In this document: piece after piece, positions 4,835-16,971 of the stretch
Numbering within the stretch: position 1 is the first letter of the stretch
How the letters are laid out: each line of letters opens with the position of its first letter
Assembly: GCF_000149955.1 (NCBI RefSeq)
Contig: NC_030990.1
Span: 248,001 to 312,000, forward strand
Length of the DNA stretch: 64,000 nucleotides
Direction: 5' to 3'
DNA from: Fusarium oxysporum f. sp. lycopersici 4287
Taxonomy: Eukaryota; Ascomycota; Sordariomycetes; Hypocreales; Nectriaceae
Notes under the pieces: model-generated
Database searches by the model: none
The model's input: only the letters and a program-made list of their open reading frames with translations
Told to the model about the DNA's origin: nothing
Made by a program: the position numbers and the translations under genes

Positions 4835-7087
4835 CTAAGAAATAGTGAACTCACTACTCCTACCTGTAAAGGTATTAATCTTACCCGTGATGGGAGCCTT
4901 GCTATCTCCATAATAGCTCAATCTGTACGTCCCAGAACCAATATCCTTCGCATCCTGCCATCCAGTCTCCCAAGTGATAGCAACCTCACTCGATCCAAGC
5001 AAACCATCAAGTCTCTTCCACTCAAAAACAAGATCCCAATCTTCGTCAGTCCGAACTTGAACCCACTTAGATCCGTCCTTCTTCTCAACTGCCGCATAAG
5101 TATCCTCGAGGTGAAGATTGTTACGTGGATTGGCTCCCACGAACGTAGCGCTGATAGTTTCGCCAACTGCAAACTTTGACTTGCTCACGTCTTTGATAAC
5201 GTCGCCAAACTTAGTGCCGATCTTGGGGTTGTCGTAAACAACGCCTGTGGTGAGAGCAATGGAATTCTTCCGATTATCAGGCGCAGCTGGACCAGCAGGC
5301 GGCTTCGACGCGCCCTTTTCCTGGAGGAGGTATCCGAGATAGGTTGATGTCAGGTTGATGTAAGCGTCCAGACTATGTCTGCCATGGACTGTTGAGCCAC
5401 CTTCGTAGCGCTGCACATCATACTCTTCAGGTGTCGTACAATAATGAGCGTATGTATTGCCAGGTCCACCAGCCACAACAATAGGGTCACTTCCAACACC
5501 ACCTCTATCCTTGATCTCATCACTGATACTCTTGCGCCAACGTCGTGAAGACATAGTCGTCAGCTCAGGTGCTGAAACGATAATGAAGAAATTACCGACA
5601 CGAAGCATCTGGATATCCACGATGTTGGGAGCCCAAGCATAAGGCAGTGTGATCTCGCCAGCGTCAATAAGAATCGGCTTGGGTGACTGACATTCAACCT
5701 GCTCCTTGGTAGGGTTGCGCAAGAACTTTGATACAAGAGCCCAGAAGGGACTGGCATCGGGTTCACCGGAATCACCCTGCTTGAAGTCGAAGTACCCAGG
5801 ACCGTCGGTAGTTCCAGCGGCGAAAGAGTATCCGAAGGCTGCTGCACATGTCTTTGCTGATGTGCCATTGGGTAGCTGAAAGGTGAAGTCGGAAAAGTCC
5901 TGGAATGAGTGATATCCAAGAACACTCTTTCCCGTGACCGCAACACCATCACCACCTTGCATCTGATTGTACAACTTATCAGCCTGCTTGAAGACCCTAC
6001 GACCAATTTCCCAGCATGACTTGGTGCCTCCGTCATTCAAACCCCAGAAAGGTCCTCTTCCGTGACAAGTCTCTATCTTGCCACCACAAGTCGCATCCTT
6101 GAAGTCACACTGCTTTCCTGAACCATCCTCACACCAGGCCCCTTCGACATTTGGCGTGGTATCAGCGACGGCAGCTTGTGAAAAGCCGGCCACGAAATCA
6201 TCAGTCGCTCCGTTGGTTCCACGAATAGCTTGCTCCAGAAGGTAGGCACTCACACCCTTGTTATCGCCAGCAACAAGAGTGTTGTTCATGTAAAGACTTG
6301 TACCGTGAACCGAGAACCATGTTAACACTCCAGTGACTTTGTTGTCTGAGTCGCGAGTGAATTTAAGCATGGTCAGTTCCTTGTCAACCTCATCCTGGTA
6401 CTTGTCCCGCTCAGACTTTGGGTTAGCTTGGTATGCATAAAGGCTTCGATTGATGTTGACGTCTTCGATGCGAATCTTGCCTACGCTTAGACGACCCTTG
6501 GCAAGACTTTCATGCGCCCGCTTGACAGAAAGGACAGCACCGTCAACGATGGCCTGGTATGCCTGTTGATTGAATCCCAGAGCAGAGATCTGAGGCATGA
6601 GATAGTTATTCCAACCTGCTGGCCCAGCGTGAGAATGCGTTCCAGTAACAGCAACATTATCAGACGTGTACACTGCGTACTCCGATCCCAAAGCAGCAAT
6701 GCCCTCAAGGATACCTCTGCGAATAGCAGTATCACCAGACTGAGTATCCAAGACCAAGTAGACAAACCGCTCTTTGGGTTCATCCGGATTACCCACGATG
6801 AAAGCCCGAGAGTAAAGGCGCTGACGCAAGCCCGTTCCTATCTGCCCGAGGTCGGCGTATCCCATAAGATTGAGCTCGACGACAGGGCCAGTCACGTCAG
6901 CCTTGCCGACACCGAGCAAGTAGACATCACCAGAGTCATCAGCTCGCTTTGTGTTATCGTTGGAGGCATCTTCAGGTGAAGGGACGGCGAAGCATGATAC
7001 TGTCTGGAATAGGAAGGTGGTGAAGCTCAGGTATAACAGGAGCACATATGAAAGATTGCGATAAGTTGCGGTGAACATCATGACCAC
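4835..7087 (-). CDS. Neutral ceramidase, secreted
   Basis: Single-exon 750-residue protein, the usual length for fungal neutral/alkaline ceramidases, which hydrolyse ceramide to sphingosine and fatty acid. It starts with a hydrophobic signal segment (about residues 8-32). The catalytic domain begins at GVGKADVTGPVVELNLMGYA and contains the zinc-site motif GTHSHAGPAGW (His151 and His153), then WFSVHGTSLY, a cysteine-rich CEDGSGKQCDF stretch and a C-terminal beta-sandwich-like domain (about 600-750). One oddity is at the nucleophile: the family motif GDxSPN reads ADTTPN, so the Ser of animal and bacterial enzymes is Thr311 here (codon 6155-6157) and the Gly is Ala. All else looks intact. It is likely secreted or on the outer membrane. 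The start is the only ATG giving a full signal peptide. Confidence 0.92.
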   Translation of the reverse strand: MVMMFTATYRNLSYVLLLYLSFTTFLFQTVSCFAVPSPEDASNDNTKRADDSGDVYLLGVGKADVTGPVVELNLMGYADLGQIGTGLRQRLYSRAFIVGNPDEPKERFVYLVLDTQSGDTAIRRGILEGIAALGSEYAVYTSDNVAVTGTHSHAGPAGWNNYLMPQISALGFNQQAYQAIVDGAVLSVKRAHESLAKGRLSVGKIRIEDVNINRSLYAYQANPKSERDKYQDEVDKELTMLKFTRDSDNKVTGVLTWFSVHGTSLYMNNTLVAGDNKGVSAYLLEQAIRGTNGATDDFVAGFSQAAVADTTPNVEGAWCEDGSGKQCDFKDATCGGKIETCHGRGPFWGLNDGGTKSCWEIGRRVFKQADKLYNQMQGGDGVAVTGKSVLGYHSFQDFSDFTFQLPNGTSAKTCAAAFGYSFAAGTTDGPGYFDFKQGDSGEPDASPFWALVSKFLRNPTKEQVECQSPKPILIDAGEITLPYAWAPNIVDIQMLRVGNFFIIVSAPELTTMSSRRWRKSISDEIKDRGGVGSDPIVVAGGPGNTYAHYCTTPEEYDVQRYEGGSTVHGRHSLDAYINLTSTYLGYLLQEKGASKPPAGPAAPDNRKNSIALTTGVVYDNPKIGTKFGDVIKDVSKSKFAVGETISATFVGANPRNNLHLEDTYAAVEKKDGSKWVQVRTDEDWDLVFEWKRLDGLLGSSEVAITWETGWQDAKDIGSGTYRLSYYGDSKAPITGKINTFTGRSSEFTIS

Positions 7088-7701: not shown

Positions 7702-10700
7702 CTATGCGTTATCGCCTTCTGCTATCTTAGCCAGTTCTGCTCGTCCAATTGTTCCGTATCGCTGTGAATCAAACATCCATCGAATAATTGTCTCTGTAGC
7801 CTGAAACATCTCCCGCTGGCTCTCCTCCAGTTCTGGCGCCTGCACCGCGCTCATATTTGATAGATCAACTGGCCCTTGCTCAAGGTTCATACTAGCCATC
7901 TGCGATTGCATAGCCAATCCGTCATCTCGCTGCCGTAATATATCCTCATGCCGCTTCCTGAGTGTCTCTCCTCGGGTAAGCGCTTCCTCCGGATAGTCCG
8001 GGATAGACTCCAATTCATTAATGACACTTCGCATGTCCTCCAGCATAGTATCCGGCACAGTCTCACTCCAGCCTTCAATAGCAACTTCATAGCAACCCAG
8101 CGCGAGATTAATCGGTGATCCGTCGCCAAAGTATCTCTGCGCTGGTCCAAAGCTTTGACGGAATCTGATATTGGGATCAGCACCGCTAAGAAGAAGCTTT
8201 CCGACTAAGAAATGATTTTGGAACAAAGCGGCTCGGCACAAGGCGGTACCAAGTTTTGGATGATCAAAGTTTATGCACTCTTTGGTCGCGAAAGGCGAAT
8301 TCTCTGAGAGCATGCATTGGACTTGCGCCATGTAGATTTCTGCTTCGACGACGTTCTTGCGTGCTGGTGGCGAGGTAGCAAGGACAATCCATGCGCTTTT
8401 TTGTTCTTCGGCGTCACCAATATGATCCACGATAAAGTCAAACTGCTCATCGTGATGGAGCATAGACTCGTGATCAGCTGTTGTGTCGTTTGGTTTCAAC
8501 AGGGATTGAAGGATTGACAGCGACGTCTCTGTTCTTTGCTCAAGTAGCTCCTTGAGAATGGAAATTCGCGGGAGTTCGGTCCCCAGCTGATATGGGCTGC
8601 CAATTTGCGCTCCATGCTGTATGAGTAGATTCGCTAGGTCAAAGTATCCATGTAAGATAGCTTCAACAACAGGCGGTCTAGTCCCTGCTGGATGATCCAT
8701 AACAGAAACTCCGGACGCTATGAGCTCTTCCGCTATGACAGTCCCGGGGGGAGATGAAGCCGGTCTCGTTGCCGAGTCGTGAAGTAACGTACCCGGCAAC
8801 TCAGTGTAATTTTCGATACCGCAGCCATAGTCTCTCAACAGTCGAAACACTCTCTCATCATTGAGCAGGATCGCTTCGCGCATGGGTCGATTATCAGGCG
8901 AGCCGGAGGGATTATGACCCATTTTTAGTAACGCCTCAACGATATCAGGGTTCCCAAGCCGAATTTGCATGCACAGGGCTTCTCCAGATGATCTGGTACT
9001 TGAGTCGGCGTTACCGAGTAGTTCTCTCTGCCCCTTGAAAATGGCAAGTGTTTCCTCGACATCTGAACAATATCTCGGGCCGTTTCTAATCAGTCGGCTG
9101 AGCAAGGAAAACGTGTCTCGGTTGCCAGCCCTTTGCCCCTGAGCCATCTTTAAAAGAGCCAGATCGTCAAAACCATCGAACAAACCTGAGATCCTCGATT
9201 CGGCATAGCCCTGTCTCAAGAATAGCCGAAGGAATTTCGGGAATGCTAGCAGAGCGGCAAGCTGAAAGGGTGACTTCCCTTCAACTTCAATAAAGGGATC
9301 AGCACCAAGTTCGATGAGGACTTCTGCAGCATGGATGTTCTGGAATAGAACACATCTGCCAAGAGGTGTTGTGGAGATAGACATAGTTCCCTCCCAGTCG
9401 GCGTACGCCTTGAGGACTTCAGCTCTCATGCCACCTGATGCGGCATCTATTAGAGCCCCGGCGTCTAGTAAGCCCTTTGCCATTGGCATCATCTCTTCTC
9501 TTTCGAACCTCCACAGCCAATGTAGTGGGGTGTCTTGACCCAAGGGATGTCCTTTTGGATCAGCACCGTGTCTAAGTAGTGCTAGTGAAGCCTCTAAATG
9601 AGCATTCCGACAAGAACAGACCAATGGCGTTTCTTCGCAGTCCTGGTTCGGAAGGTCAATAGTCAACTTGAAGGTCTTGATGAGATGGTCAATTGTCTTG
9701 GCTTGTCCACGGGCTGCTGCCATGTGCAGAACTCCATGTCCACGGCTGTTGACAAAGATTTTGTCGAAATGAGTCACCTGCTGAGTATTTTCGTTTCCTG
9801 CGAGTGAGCTCTTCAGTGACTGATCGTAGGTCTCTCCAAGCTCCTCCTTGAGTTCCTGTTGCAGCTGCTCCAAGTCATCGATCTGAAAGTCCTTTTTCAA
9901 ATGCCGTGGTAGGAACGCAAGAGACCCAGGAACGCCGCTGTAGTGATTAGCAAGCTTCCGTGCTGTCGAGCATGCTTGGATGGCGTTATCTCTCAGTTCG
10001 TCACTCAGTAGCGGCAGAGCGTCCTCGAGATCTTGGCCGGCTTGCCACCCTCCACGAAGAGTAGCCCATGTGAGACTCGACGGAAAGACGGCTAGCAGCT
10101 CGGGCGGCGTTTGTCCTAGAGCTTGGCTCACACGCCATACACATGATGCGGCGAGATATTCGAACCCGCTTGAATCATCAGATCCGGTTACTGCGTCACT
10201 TGCTGCTCGTCTAAGTGCAGCGCAGGCTCTTCCGGGGTCGAGGGACGTGCCAAATTCGGCGATGTGGCATCTGAAGAGAAACCAAGCTGCGAAGAGCCTA
10301 TGTAGTTCGACATCGCGGCTTTGATCCCCAGAGTCTGAGATAGCATGAAGGGCTTGGAGGATATGTTCTTGCTGCTGCCATGACAAGACCTTCTTGAGTT
10401 TCTCGGGCTCAAAGACGAAACCTGGGTTTACTGGGGCCTTGACTATTGGCCTGAAGCCGGGGCTGTAACAGGTGTTAGCATGAAAAACGTACGTTTTAGC
10501 CTATCTTACGTGTTGTTCTGAGGATCATAAGTAGCTCCAACAGTGCCTAAGAATAGTCCAGCACCGTCTGCACTAATGCCATGCTTTCCCTGACAAGATG
10601 TTAGTTCGGCCTGTGGAACATCCGCCGCCTCATGTTGCAGGCTGGGAAGAGGAACTGTCTGAGTGGAGGAGGTCACTCACTGGAGGTTCGTTGTCTTCAA

Positions 10701-11980
10701 CTTCCTTCCACTTGCGATTCATTTGGTCGACGTTACTTAAGTATTCATCAATTTCCGAAAGACTAGGGTAGCAAGAGATCAGTTGGGTTGCACTTTGGTC
10801 GATCTGGTGGAGTTTTGACATACGGGATACCTCTCAGAGCAACCTGTGCCTTGGCCAAAGACCTATCTGCTAAGTTCTTTTGTATCGTCTGTTCAAGAAC
10901 ATATAGCACCATTTCCGTACAGTCCTGATTGATCTCACGCATATCAAAGTAATCTTGGATCAAACATGTCGCTCTGTGTAGAAGTCGTCCTGACTGCTTT
11001 AATTGAGCCAGCGTCACCGATGAACCCGAAGCCTCTCGCCGAGGACTAAACTCATAATGGAGATTGGCCAAATCCCCATCTGCAAATGTTTCACAGGCAA
11101 GTAAACCAAAAGAGTAGACGTCGCATAGCTTTGCGGCCTCCGCCGTGACTATGCCGTCGGTTTCCGGTGCCGCGTATCTCGGTGTCTTGCAGATGAAGCG
11201 ATAAGAGTCATACTTCTCAGAACCGTAGACAGCGCCTCCAAAGTCAGCCAGTTTAGCTATATAAGGGCCATGACTGGATTTATCTGCGAATATCAGTACA
11301 TTCTGACGTTTGATGTCGCCGTGAATAATGCTGCAAGCGTGAATGATGGATAAGCCTTTCCCCGCATCATACAGCAGTTTTTGCTTGACAGCAAAAGAAA
11401 GTGGTGATTTCGAGTTACTTTGCAGATCCTCTAACGTTCCGTGTTCTGCATGCTCGATGACAAGTTGAGGATAAACGCTTCCGGATGCTCCGTTAGGTCC
11501 CCAGCACAAGCCGACGAGGCGCACGATGTTGGGATGGTAGCGAAGGGTCTCGTGAAGAAGAGCGCGAATTTCGAGCAATACGTGATCCCAGCCTGCCTTG
11601 GGTAGTTCATCAGATTGAGACTGAATCCGAACTGTTTTTAAAGCCACGACACGCTTTTGGCGGATGACCGCAGGCGCAGAGCTGGTTGTCTGAGGGTTTG
11701 GGATTGCGATGGCTCGTTCCACTGAGAAGGTTGCGCCGCGATCGATGAATGATCGCTCGGTGAAGCCTTGAATATACTCATCGATAAAAACAGTTTCTGT
11801 GTTACGTCCCTTCTTTTCCAAGGATGAGACATGGGCCAGGAAAGTTGGAAATCTGTTTTCATTCCGATCAAGCTGCTCTTTCACTTGTTCCTCGACAGGC
11901 TGGAGCTGTACACTGTCTGCTGGTAGTATTGAAGGGTCCTGCCATAAGATCTGGCTGAAAGGGTCTATAATCGTCTCCAT
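7702..11980 (-). CDS. Protein kinase with C-terminal ankyrin repeats (RIPK4-like layout)
   Basis: Four exons joined at introns 10763-10823, 10590-10680 and 10463-10509 give 4080 nt, 1359 residues, no stop. The kinase domain (about residues 60-340) keeps the key residues: VVALKTV (ATP-binding Lys), HGDIKRQNVLIF (catalytic loop, HGD for HRD), LADFGG and PRYAAPE, so it looks catalytically competent. A linker rich in helical segments leads into an ankyrin-repeat array (about 580-1250) with repeated LxxGADP/AxxGxxxxVxxLL units. By domain order this is like animal RIPK4/ANKK1 and fungal NLR-type receptors: the ankyrin part would sense, the kinase would signal. The ATG at 11980 is the first in frame after the upstream open region. 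It is transcribed divergently from the HeLo-pseudokinase gene at 12371, with 390 bp between them. Confidence 0.85.
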
Positions 11981-12370
11981 GTTGTGTGTTGGAGATGATG
12001 AAGCGTCCAACAACCGCAAGACTCCAAGTGGGAGATGGATTCTGCCTCGGCTCCGTTATGTCTCGGACGCTGCGCCTGCATAATATGATAACGCTGATGG
12101 TTCGATTGTGATTGGTTACCCTAAGCCACCCAAGTTCAGCTCAGCCCAGCCCATTCAGTTCTAGGCCTTGATACTGCATTTGCCACGTAAGAGCTTGAAA
12201 TCAGGCTGCACTGATTATGCCTTGAATAAAAATTGCCTCATATGACTTGACATCAATTGAGCAAACAGCAAACACACCGGATTGAGCGGCAAACAACACG
12301 AGAAGCCGTTCTTATTCAAGTTAGTTCACACCATTAGTCCAGTCACGAAACCAAACGGCAGCCAACTACA
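11981..12370. promoter_or_regulatory. Shared bidirectional promoter of kinase-ankyrin and HeLo-pseudokinase genes
   Basis: The 390-bp gap between two divergent start codons must carry both promoters. It contains an inverted CCAAT box (GATTGGTTA, about 12110-12118) near its middle and a pyrimidine-rich CAGCTCAGCCCAGCCC stretch. Co-regulation is inferred from the layout only. Confidence 0.5.
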
Positions 12371-14065
12371 ATGCTTGATCCAGGCTCAATCATCGCCCTC
12401 ACGCAAATCACATACGAAGGTGCTAAACGGGCTGTGGACCTGGTCCTCACAGCGATACACTTTCCGAAAGAGTGTGAGGAGTTGTTTGTGCAGCTGAAGC
12501 TTGAGCAGTTCCGCCTGCAGTGCTGGGGTCGAAGTGCGGGGTTGGAGCAAGGCAGACTTATCGAGGCTCTACACCCAATCTTTCCAGAGATACGAAACGC
12601 GCTTGACTGCATAAGTGCACTTTTCCAGGACTTGAATAAGCTACAGGCTAAGTTTGGCATCGTGTCTACGACTGTGGAGGATGTAGGTCAGAGGCAAAAG
12701 GAATTGGCGTACAAGTGGAACGAAGAACTTCACAAGCAAGGCCTGGCACTTTCCGGTAAACAGGGTGAAGATGGGGCGCCGTCCCTGATCTCGAAAGAAC
12801 AGAAGGCTTTCTTCCCGGTTGGTACCTTCAAGGTCAACCTACCAGCTCGTCTCCGATGGGCATTAGGAAACAAGTCCAAGTTCCGCGACTGCGTGGCCGA
12901 GCTGGAAAGGTACACCAACAAACTGAACCAACTCTTACCAGAGCGCCAGAGTCTTCAGTACAGACAAGACTGGACAAGAATCAACATCATAATCGTCGGA
13001 AAGGCAGATGATGAGAACACAGTCTCTTTGCTCCGAAATGCCCTTGAGGGAAGTCCAACGATGGAATCATCACTCCGTGGCCTGGTGGATAGAAAGTCAG
13101 TTGCTGCTGCTCCTACCTCCACGAACTTCCTACGAGGCAACCCTCAGCTAGACAAGAGTGCTTTCGCTATGCCTATAGGAGCTAAGGACAAGGAACGATT
13201 TATCACGACGAGAAAAGCGACTGGCGAACAAGTTCTGTTTGAGAAGAAGTCATGGGATGATGAACGCTCCATGGCTAATCGCTCAAAGTTACAAATGCGC
13301 CTCAGCCGACTTGTCGCAATGCTACGCCCCGGGAGAAGTAACTACCTTCCAAAGGCAGTCGGCTTCGCAGAAGATGAAGTTGCCAAATGCTGGTGGATCG
13401 TATATGAGATGCCCCCATCCATAAAATCTGGCCCTAATTGTCGTGTTATGACGCTTCAAGAGCGGTTGGGACGTCAATCTCTCCACATGGCACCTCTTGA
13501 GGTCCGAACGAAACTGGCCTTGGCCTTGGCCACAGCTTACTCAGAACTGTTTAGTAGTGGCTGGGTTCACAAGGCTATTAGCAGTCATAGCATCGTGTAC
13601 TTTGGTCCTTATACTGATCTGATAAGTCCTTCTGTCGTCGGTTTTGAGTTTTCTCGTCAGGATACTGAAGAGTCCAACGTCGATGCCGCCAAGACGCCAG
13701 CACAAGTCGAACGAAGCATTTATCGGCATCCTGATTACATCGGTAGTGAGGCAAAGAGATACATGACACAGTATGATATCTACTCCTTTGGACTTGTCTT
13801 GATAGAAATTGCGTTCTGGCAGCCGTTGAAAGATGTTTGTCCATATGCCAAAGGCGACACATTTGGCAAAGAGGAAGCGAAGTCTGTGCAGAAGTGGGCG
13901 ACTCAAGTAGCAGAGACACAATTTCCGTTTAGAGTTGGGACGGCGTATGCGAATGTTGTGAGTTGGTGTTTGAAGAACGGTGCTAGACTTAGCAAGGACC
14001 AGGAGGACTGGCATCCAGCGTTGGCGTTCAATGATCATGTCGTTGTTCCACTTTCAGGAACCTAA
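12371..14065 (+). CDS. HeLo-domain protein with C-terminal pseudokinase
   Basis: Single-exon 564-residue protein. The N-terminal 200 residues match the HeLo (prion-inhibition and propagation) family: a hydrophobic first helix, then KLEQFRLQCWGRSAGLEQG and a helical bundle ending near a LPARLRWALGNKSKF...CVAELERYTNKL segment. HeLo domains execute cell death by membrane targeting in HET-S-type systems and resemble the four-helix bundle of MLKL. Residues about 270-550 form a kinase fold with a beta-3 Lys (VLFEKKSW), but the catalytic loop reads VHKAISSHSIVYF (Asp replaced, about residue 400) and the DFG position reads GFE (about 424), so it is a pseudokinase. A late DIYSFGLVLIEIAFW helix F motif is kept. 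It is head to head with an active kinase-ankyrin gene. The start at 12371 opens directly on the HeLo first helix. Confidence 0.87.
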   Translation: MLDPGSIIALTQITYEGAKRAVDLVLTAIHFPKECEELFVQLKLEQFRLQCWGRSAGLEQGRLIEALHPIFPEIRNALDCISALFQDLNKLQAKFGIVSTTVEDVGQRQKELAYKWNEELHKQGLALSGKQGEDGAPSLISKEQKAFFPVGTFKVNLPARLRWALGNKSKFRDCVAELERYTNKLNQLLPERQSLQYRQDWTRINIIIVGKADDENTVSLLRNALEGSPTMESSLRGLVDRKSVAAAPTSTNFLRGNPQLDKSAFAMPIGAKDKERFITTRKATGEQVLFEKKSWDDERSMANRSKLQMRLSRLVAMLRPGRSNYLPKAVGFAEDEVAKCWWIVYEMPPSIKSGPNCRVMTLQERLGRQSLHMAPLEVRTKLALALATAYSELFSSGWVHKAISSHSIVYFGPYTDLISPSVVGFEFSRQDTEESNVDAAKTPAQVERSIYRHPDYIGSEAKRYMTQYDIYSFGLVLIEIAFWQPLKDVCPYAKGDTFGKEEAKSVQKWATQVAETQFPFRVGTAYANVVSWCLKNGARLSKDQEDWHPALAFNDHVVVPLSGT

Positions 14066-14751: not shown

Positions 14752-16971
14752 ATGGAGTATTTCAACAAGATGGAGGTGAGTATTCCAATGATCTTGATTT
14801 TGCGTATTTGAATTTAACAGCGTGCAGAGAGAGCCGGCCACTGGTGATCATGGGCAAAGCTTTTGTGATACCTGCAAGAATATTCGGTTCCCGTTAGGAC
14901 CGGACTTCCGAAAACATATCAACGGGTATTTAGAGCTCGCATCACGCGCCGCTCATTGCGTTCTATGCAATCTTGTGCGCAAAGGGCTGCGGAGAGAATT
15001 CCTCGCTACAACCGCTGCGGTAATGGATCAATACGATGCAGATCGGCTTGATAGAGCAATATCCAGCAGTGTGGTTTTCAACAATCCCTTCGTGTCAGGG
15101 ATCCCAGGTTGGGTCGCTCTGAGAGGCCGGAAGGACTCGGTGACCGTCATCGACGTTTACGTATCACCAAGGGCTTGTTGTGTGTTGAAAGTGTCTCCCG
15201 ATATTGGTAAGTTGCTACTGTTGGTTGGAAATCGAAGACAACCAAGATTAACGTATACTTAGATTCCGAGGCAATGAGCGTCTGTGCTCCATGTCGCTCG
15301 CCATATTTAAAAAATATACCCAGTCTTGGTTCACCTAGGCTTGACCTCTCCTGTGGTCCTTCGGAGCTCTATTACGCCAAACTGCTTCTCTGGCAAGATG
15401 TGAATACCTGTGGTACGGCAGTAAACACCCTGCCCTCGCGCGTGATAGATTTGGGAGAGGGAGACAATACATGGCATGCTTTAACCCCGAAACCAATTCG
15501 GCTGCTTGAACCGAGCAGAGGAACTGTTGGCATTTACATGACTTTGAGCCATCGTTGGAGCTCAACAGACCACATCACGACTACTAGCAATAACATCAAA
15601 GAACATCGAAAAGTCATTCCATGGCAAAACCTTTCCCGCACCTTCCGAGAAGCTATTGCCATATGCCGAGAGATGGGTGTCCGATACTTGTGGATTGACT
15701 CGCTCTGCATTGTACAAAATGATGAGGCTGATTGGCAGCGTGAGTCAAGGCTTATGGGAGACGTCTACCGCAATTCTGTATGCACTATCGCATGCCATAT
15801 TAGAGACAATGAGAACAACGGGTTTTTGCACAGGGTTTTCCGCAAAAACATGGTCATTCTCCGTGGAGAAAACGAACGGGTTTTTGGGCTCTCATTGCCT
15901 AGCCAGTTCTCCCGGGCTATAGTGCATGATAGTGCAATCAGCTGGCGAGGATGGGTTCTCCAAGAGCGTTTGCTTTCGAAGAGGATTCTTCATTTTCTTC
16001 CATCACAAATTTACTTTGAAACTGAGTTCAATCGTGTTATGTCTCTCGACACGAAGAGATATGAGTTTCTTGAAGGCACCCCGGGACTTGGGTCTAAGAT
16101 CATAACGCGATCGTCCCCTTTGCAGGATATTGGAGAGTGGCGCCAAATTGTCGAATGGTATTCTCGCTGCGCTCTAACAAGACCAAAGGACAGGCTCCCA
16201 GCCTTGGCTGGCCTTGCATCGATTATACAGCGTCGGTTTTCGGATGATTATCTAGCTGGCCTATGGGGTTTTACTTTCATTGAGGATTTATGCTGGGTGG
16301 CAGCTGACGGAACCGAGACTAAGAAGCCTCCATCACCTCGTGCGCCAAGCTGGTCATGGGCATCATTAGATGGAGCTGTCATCTACATTGTTCCCGACAG
16401 GTATACAGCAGGTATGAATCCTGATTAATCTGGGCTTCACCTGGCTCAAGATTTGTCAAATTCGGCTCTCAGTGACCCGTCTCGAGGGCAACTTCGTCGT
16501 GTTTCGGACAAGAGAGATCAGGCGACACCTAGCTGGATCGAACAGCCGGCGCCTTTGAACTTTATGGGTATTCCACAAACACTACCCCAAATTGGAAAGC
16601 TTCGCCAAGAGTCACCTGTGCTAAAGGGGTCGTTAGGCTTCATGGGCACAGCACCTTTCTCCAAGATCCGTCGAACTTCCTACAGACCAGTCATACTAGC
16701 AGGACATACTGTAGGTATTGCAGTCCTCGACTTCGAGAATGGGGGTCGCGATGAGCGACAACCACTTTGGTACTTTGAGTTAAACAGCAATAAACTTGGT
16801 TATTGCGTGCTTATTGTTTCAAAGAGCTCTGGAGAGACAACTGTTTATAGAAGAGAAGGCCTGGGTTTTCTTTATTATACAACAAAGACAGAAGATGGCA
16901 GTATGTATGATTTGTCAGATAATTTGCATAATATTAAGGGTAAAGAACTAGAGGAAGTTATATTAATTTAG
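14752..16971 (+). CDS. HET-domain (heterokaryon incompatibility) protein
   Basis: Four exons joined at introns 14776-14827, 15207-15262 and 16412-16450 give 690 residues without a stop. The N-terminus has a Cys-rich segment (FCDTCKNIRF, HCVLCNL) common in this class. The HET domain (about residues 245-400) shows YMTLSHRWSSTDH, SRTFREAIAICREMGVRYLWIDSLCIVQND, DWQRES..MGDVYRNS and later WVLQERLLSKRILHF. The C-terminal half ends in the family-like VYRREGLGFLYYTTK segment. HET domains trigger regulated cell death on nonself recognition. A tiny first exon encoding eight residues is inferred because the second exon lacks its own ATG and the phase-0 join keeps the frame. The third intron is only 39 nt. 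The gene looks intact and lies within the cell-death island between the HeLo-pseudokinase and STAND-type genes. Confidence 0.87.

Follow-up and report, generated by a model that had tools for sequence, protein, structure and literature searches.

Two divergently transcribed genes of Fusarium oxysporum f. sp. lycopersici 4287, one encoding a protein kinase fused to ankyrin repeats and the other a HeLo domain fused to a pseudokinase, probably (at roughly 60%) act together as a single module: a HeLo death switch, driven by the kinase, that would work like RIPK3-MLKL and of which this genome has about ten diverged versions. They lie in the window analysed here, a stretch of 64,000 nucleotides corresponding to bases 248001-312000 of contig C5 in a genome of 61.2 Mb and 71 contigs, and all family counts, linkage and controls reported below refer to this one genome. 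The observation behind the original prediction of a RIPK-MLKL-like pair is confirmed and is larger than first described; the same head-to-head pairing recurs in diverged paralogs, at 10/15 loci. The gene pairing, the status of the catalytic residues, the order of the domains and the kinship of the families are direct observations. In window coordinates the pair comprises:

7702..11980, minus strand: kinase-ankyrin gene, four exons (11980-10824, 10762-10681, 10589-10510, 10462-7702), 1359 amino acids plus stop (own gene model, Pfam and paralogs)
11075..11662, minus strand: protein kinase domain core (Pkinase 3.5e-25 by Pfam), retaining VVALK, HGDIKRQN and DFG
8164..9729, minus strand: ankyrin region, spanning all Ank matches (Ank_2 4.5e-20, with further Ank models), without a Sel1 match
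11981..12370, no strand: shared intergenic region, 390 bp between the two start codons
12371..14065, plus strand: HeLo-pseudokinase gene, single exon, 564 amino acids (P0001)
12431..12979, plus strand: HeLo domain, residues 21-203 (PF14479 4.4e-23, 82.6 bits against a cut-off of 23.2)
13136..14062, plus strand: pseudokinase (kinase-like) domain, residues about 256-564 (profile and model)
13562..13597, plus strand: degenerate catalytic loop WVHKAISSHSIV, without the catalytic Asp (sequence reading)
13640..13648, plus strand: GFE where DFG would stand, also seen in the aligned MLKL sequences (sequence reading and alignment)

The architecture that had been proposed from the letters of the window, namely an active-looking kinase fused to ankyrin repeats that shares a 390-bp promoter with a HeLo protein whose kinase lacks both the catalytic Asp and the DFG Asp, is borne out in each of these parts. 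The kinase-ankyrin gene runs from an ATG at 11980 to a stop at 7702, with introns at 10823-10763, 10680-10590 and 10509-10463 that all follow GT..AG in my gene model, and its product has the Lys of VVALK, the HGD of HGDIKRQN and DFG. A Sel1-like stretch that I first assumed by eye was dropped, as Pfam gives no Sel1 match there, and a Pfam scan of the pieces of this gene found kinase and Ank but neither NACHT nor NB-ARC. Across the divergent start codons, the neighbouring protein belongs to the HeLo family by the Pfam test, and both the HRD Asp (in the HKAISSHS region of the catalytic loop) and the DFG Asp are gone. Its kinase-like part scores weakly in Pfam (DUF7580, PF24476, 3.2e-5; Pkinase 0.021, both under cut-off), and an NCBIfam scan returns remote kinase models only, all below cut-off, but the kinase relationship is clear by profile comparison and by the structure model. 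The model of the HeLo region is all-helical (pLDDT 71), and the helices at residues 195-246 are present in the full model with low confidence.

A genome search with the HeLo protein returned 20 rows, 19 of them for the kinase-like part, and these 19 places reduce to 15 distinct pseudokinase loci (at least 15, counts from the genome searches being lower bounds) when four near-identical copies (C3 twice, C6 and C70) and two C15 copies are collapsed. At 11/15 of these loci the genome searches and the list of Pkinase matches place a kinase head-to-head with the pseudokinase, 0.4-2.1 kb away, and at 10/15 that partner belongs to the window kinase's own family:

Ten family pairs: C5 (window), C4 3.14 Mb, C6 1.115 Mb, C1 5.79 Mb, C8 3.70 Mb, C10, C11, C4 4.666 Mb, C2 and C63

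In seven measured pairs, among them the window's, 232-669 bp separate the start codons, each being assigned to the first in-frame ATG. The reverse search, with the window kinase, gave 24 rows, and the best 16 of the 23 non-self matches (all <1e-12) fall at family loci, as do 17 of the 23 overall; at 1e-9 or better there are 12 distinct matches, the window's own among them, and only one lies away from family loci. When the ankyrin part alone was searched, without the kinase, it returned 11 rows, the window and ten others, and all ten others are at family loci, four of them being C70-type copies. Downstream of the partner kinases, Ank exceeds the cut-off at C8, C10, C1 and C11, Sel1 does so at the C6 locus only, and the downstream pieces of C4 3.14 Mb and C4 4.666 Mb give sub-threshold repeat matches only, the former being covered by the ankyrin-only search. 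On the other side, HeLo is recognised in six of the ten family pairs, and the C6 and C4 3.14 Mb paralogs score above the DUF7580 cut-off. The pair that had been singled out in the window is real but not unique, being one of a family of about ten, four of which carry no Pfam HeLo match.

The near-identical copies of the HeLo-pseudokinase cluster (C3 twice, one of them at C3:3673350-3677606, C6 and C70) include one at C3:3674.8 kb whose open frame is shorter and lacks the usual start (478 vs 594 codons). The two C15 copies belong to an unpaired pseudokinase gene whose frame is interrupted, by an intron or a stop, close to its C-terminal end. At C5:880788-884120, HeLo and DUF7580 matches stand back to back on opposite strands, possibly a different pairing.

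The linkage of kinase and pseudokinase is not accidental placement. A scored kinase lies within 4 kb of a random point with a chance of about 0.019, a figure too low by some factor because 122/300 kinase candidates were scored; at least ten such cases in 15 would then have a probability of about 1.7e-14 under uniform and independent placement, and since shared descent breaks that independence the value speaks against accident and says nothing further. DUF7580 matches the window pseudokinase weakly, but the other places in the genome with this domain (25 matches minus 11 family loci and one second piece) are unlike the family, as 13/13 lack a scored kinase within 16 kb. The places with HeLo only (19 matches minus 12 at family loci) likewise lack a scored kinase within 100 kb in 7/7 cases.

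The HeLo-pseudokinases are only 19-25% identical to the window protein and the partner kinases 23-31% identical to the window kinase, and with paralogs at about 20-30% identity the linkage must be old and has outlasted deep divergence. Trees of the two families, compared for 10 pairs (without C63 and C3, and with the second of its kinases as partner of the C70 type), have the cherries C6/C10 and C8/C11 in common; random relabelling yields at least two common cherries in 1.3% of cases. In 13 aligned HeLo-pseudokinase sequences H400, G424, F425 and R429 (window numbering) are invariant. The catalytic Asp is gone in 14/14 loops, where GFE, GFD or in one case GFA replaces DFG; the loop that follows GF[ED] has between 3 and 7 Ser/Thr in all 14 sequences. 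All 12 partner kinases listed retain H[GA]D together with the catalytic-loop K and N, and the C8 kinase has, by my reading, Arg at the beta-3 Lys position.

Among 177,635 distinct PDB sequences, to which every statement of closeness here refers, the window pseudokinase most resembles MLKL, judged by sequence comparison. Searched alone, the window HeLo protein places four MLKL entries at the top of the list (2.5e-8, 5.2e-7, 1.1e-6 and 1.3e-4), the first entry of another kind being PERK at 0.048, and masking 12 residues in the catalytic loop and GFE region leaves MLKL first, weakly, at 8.9e-4. A profile of 13 sequences finds full-length MLKL (4btf) first at 3.2e-14, in an alignment whose start, at chain residue 67, is weak, followed by HET-s chains at 4.9e-12, LIMK1 at 1.4e-9 and IRAK4 at 2.7e-9. 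Twelve paralogs without the window protein give HET-s at 7.8e-13, MLKL at 6.7e-12, first among kinases, and LIMK1 at 9.5e-9. The profile of the partner kinases, in turn, finds RIPK1 first (4.9e-29, 105 bits).

The module proposed here would operate as follows. The ankyrin part would sense a non-self or damage cue, upon which the kinase would phosphorylate or bind the pseudokinase of its own neighbour, most likely at the loop after GF[ED]. This would release the N-terminal bundle, until then held by the pseudokinase, and the freed HeLo bundle would oligomerise at the plasma membrane and kill the cell; separate pairs would serve as parallel channels, each with its own trigger. Sensing, phosphorylation or binding, release and membrane attack are the predicted steps. 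The receptor would be the repeat-bearing kinase itself, and the RHIM core [VI]Q[VIL]G was found in none of 22 sequences, of which 11/12 kinase sequences are without their C-terminal parts. In HET-S, an N-terminal helix is important to the attack on the membrane (PMC12881547).

The observations in this paragraph, and several in the next, weigh against the reading of the pair as an MLKL-like switch. Four of the 15 loci (C70 type, C9, C1 3.247 Mb and C15) lack a head-to-head partner: the C70 type has two window-family kinases, 3.6 and 6.6 kb off, that are not head-to-head with it, and no family partner kinase was found near C9, C1 3.247 Mb or C15. The C9 match is followed on its own strand, after 3.6 kb, by a kinase that I take to be of the Ark/Prk type and that is not counted as making a family pair. 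At the eleventh head-to-head locus, C3 5.263 Mb, the partner is of a different kinase type; this kinase, at C3:5261.5-5262.8 kb facing the C3 pseudokinase (C3:5259000-5262900), is presumably CAMK-like and is likewise not counted. The kinase list used for the linkage is itself a lower bound, with at least 134 scored matches in at least 129 merged loci, since 122/300 candidates were scored. Pfam recognises HeLo at only 9/15 loci (C5, C70 type, C11, C1 5.79 Mb, both C4 loci, C8, C9 and C1 3.247 Mb), and the C6, C10, C2, C3 and C15 proteins give no HeLo match even at E 5; the N-termini of the proteins without a match, those of the paired C6, C10 and C2 included, may be diverged bundles or another effector domain. 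In the window protein, Foldseek with the HeLo model returned no match below E 0.83, and the best 19-residue N-terminal stretch has a hydrophobicity of 0.79 vs 1.15-2.23 in eight paralogs. As to the motifs, the DFG Asp is present in 11/12 partner kinases, the C70a kinase having GGF, the C1 kinase reads DFS in an interrupted frame, and the broken C63 pseudokinase piece, which is outside the 14 loops, reads HKD and GFS. In the 14 sequences, Ser/Thr in the loop after GF[ED] is not enriched over these proteins as a whole. Finally, the distance matrices of the pairs correlate weakly (r 0.32, Mantel p 0.044; 0.15 to 0.48 when single pairs are dropped).

The similarity to MLKL and RIP kinases is also open to a different account of its origin, one that is compatible with the functional reading and to which I would give somewhat less than even odds: the top matches to MLKL and RIPK1 would reflect convergent kinase decay, an origin of the pseudokinase from partner kinases or the make-up of the database, and the pair would be a fungal invention. 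Seven more MLKL entries rank behind PERK, at 0.082 to 0.62, and the C11 paralog searched alone finds only HET-s in the PDB (0.017), with no MLKL at 0.1. RIPK1 leads by a small margin, LRRK2 standing at 103 bits, about 2 bits behind, with the partner-kinase profile, and the window kinase alone finds no RIPK1 at 1e-8, with PBL2, CDK6, BIK1 and LRRK2 high. Fold comparison ranks many kinases alike: searches with the full model by Foldseek and VIA-align yield generic kinases, with MLKL absent from the 50 rows that each shows. The pseudokinase profile, moreover, aligns with the partner-kinase profile (hhalign 1.1e-15), so the pseudokinase may have arisen locally, from the partner kinases. What a fungal invention explains less well is that MLKL comes first even with the motifs masked, that it leads the kinases when the window sequence is absent, and that bundle and pseudokinase occur in the same order in both. 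The opposite account, in which RIPK-MLKL and the fungal pairs descend from one kinase-plus-executioner module that predates the split of fungi and animals and was kept in fungi as linked, multiplied pairs beside the NLR-amyloid route, is doubtful, and I rate it lower because PERK outranks several MLKL entries and some loci have no HeLo match. The analogy drawn in the original prediction thus stands on the head-to-head pairing at 10/15 loci and on the first rank of MLKL, by sequence, among the window pseudokinase's relatives of solved structure, while the mechanism that it attached to the pair is conjecture; the pair appears to resemble RIPK-MLKL by anatomy, and no claim of MLKL orthology is made.

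What, then, might hold the two genes together other than activation of one product by the other? The partner kinase could restrain a HeLo-pseudokinase killer, as in a poison-antidote or guard pair, so that loss of the kinase or an attack on it frees the HeLo domain. Tight head-to-head linkage suits a killer and its antidote as well as it does an activator and its effector, and both genes look broken, and so decayed, at C63, where they lie in short open pieces with stops between, some of which could be introns. However, C9 and C1 3.247 Mb retain long open frames with no family partner, the long ankyrin part would seem to exceed what an antidote needs, and the precedent of MLKL is one of activation, so such an inverse logic is unlikely. 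A little less likely again is that the pseudokinase is a bait for a foreign kinase or effector, monitored by the neighbouring kinase, with HeLo as the output and phosphorylation by the neighbour not the trigger. The many diverged paralogs with dead catalytic loops suit the diversification of decoys, and HET-domain open reading frames (ORFs) adjoin both the window pair and the C4 4.666 Mb pair, but the concentration of the kinase family at pseudokinase loci suggests direct partnership.

The linkage might, alternatively, be inherited only, one ancestral pair having been duplicated as a unit with no relation between the roles of its genes. The shared cherries do indicate some duplication as a unit. 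Nevertheless, paralogs at about 20-30% identity have had time enough for rearrangement, orientation and short spacing are retained at 10/15 loci, and kinase matches at 1e-9 or better away from family loci amount to just 1/12, which makes bare inheritance the least probable of these explanations.

If the reading as a kinase-driven HeLo switch is true, fungal HeLo executioners would gain a phosphorylation-type input, and fungi a near-complete parallel to necroptosis. In fungi, the HeLo executioners that have been characterised are activated by NLRs via amyloid templating (PMC4344463, PMC12881547), and HeLo is treated in NLR and amyloid settings elsewhere in the literature (PMC10197012, PMC9815663, PMC7889193, PMC7885112). 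A 2025 review calls, in its section 18, for wider study of HeLo/4HB proteins from fungi as a way to establish the extent of necroptosis conservation (PMC12881547), a question that the present pair makes testable with two genes in yeast. Each Fusarium genome has about 41 unclassified kinases (PMC6001611), and the kinase-ankyrin partner family may account for part of them; kinase-like, ankyrin and HeLo genes have also been listed in nearby outlier windows of one chromosome (PMC5870968). The suggestion that no such fungal pair had been described holds in part: proteins joining a HeLo-like domain to a kinase or pseudokinase are already in print (PMC12881547), but I found no description of their pairing with a kinase in openly licensed PMC papers, subscription papers and preprints being outside the search.

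The window pair is flanked downstream of the HeLo-pseudokinase gene by a HET-domain ORF at 15274-16428 (HET 1.3e-26), of which the ORFs at 14822-15262 and 16453-16971 may be further exons, and on its other side by a neutral/alkaline ceramidase gene at 4835-7087 (9.7e-211). Ankyrin and HET ORFs lie downstream of the C4 4.666 Mb pair as well; the remaining flank pieces scanned there are without HET.

Several known systems share parts of this design. RIPK4 and ANKK1 consist of a kinase followed by ankyrin repeats, a likeness to the window kinase in domain order. A similar genomic arrangement is that of the two-gene clusters NWD2/HET-S and PNT1/HELLP of fungi, in which a receptor gene adjoins a HeLo or HeLo-like executioner (PMC4344463, PMC7885112). 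Their receptor, however, is an NLR that acts by amyloid templating, whereas the window pair has a kinase with repeats and an executioner ending in a pseudokinase. That the pair itself works by amyloid templating was considered and dropped, since its HeLo protein has a pseudokinase at the C-terminus and a scan for NB domains gave none. Fungal HELL-kinase/pseudokinase proteins embody the same domain idea, to which one sentence in section 20 of the review is given, with no partner kinase mentioned in that text (PMC12881547). The plant MLKLs and Pm13 also combine a HeLo-type bundle and a kinase or pseudokinase in one protein, but the extracts on them mention no adjacent dedicated kinase, and the Pm13 kinase retains its catalytic residues (PMC10951266). 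Compared with RIPK3-MLKL of animals, the fungal partner has ankyrin repeats and no RHIM core in the 22 sequences, the genes stand head-to-head in about ten versions, and phosphorylation is here a prediction. RIPK3-MLKL shares with the pair an executioner in which a helical bundle at the N-terminus precedes a pseudokinase that has GFE instead of DFG, and an active kinase as its partner (PMC12881547).

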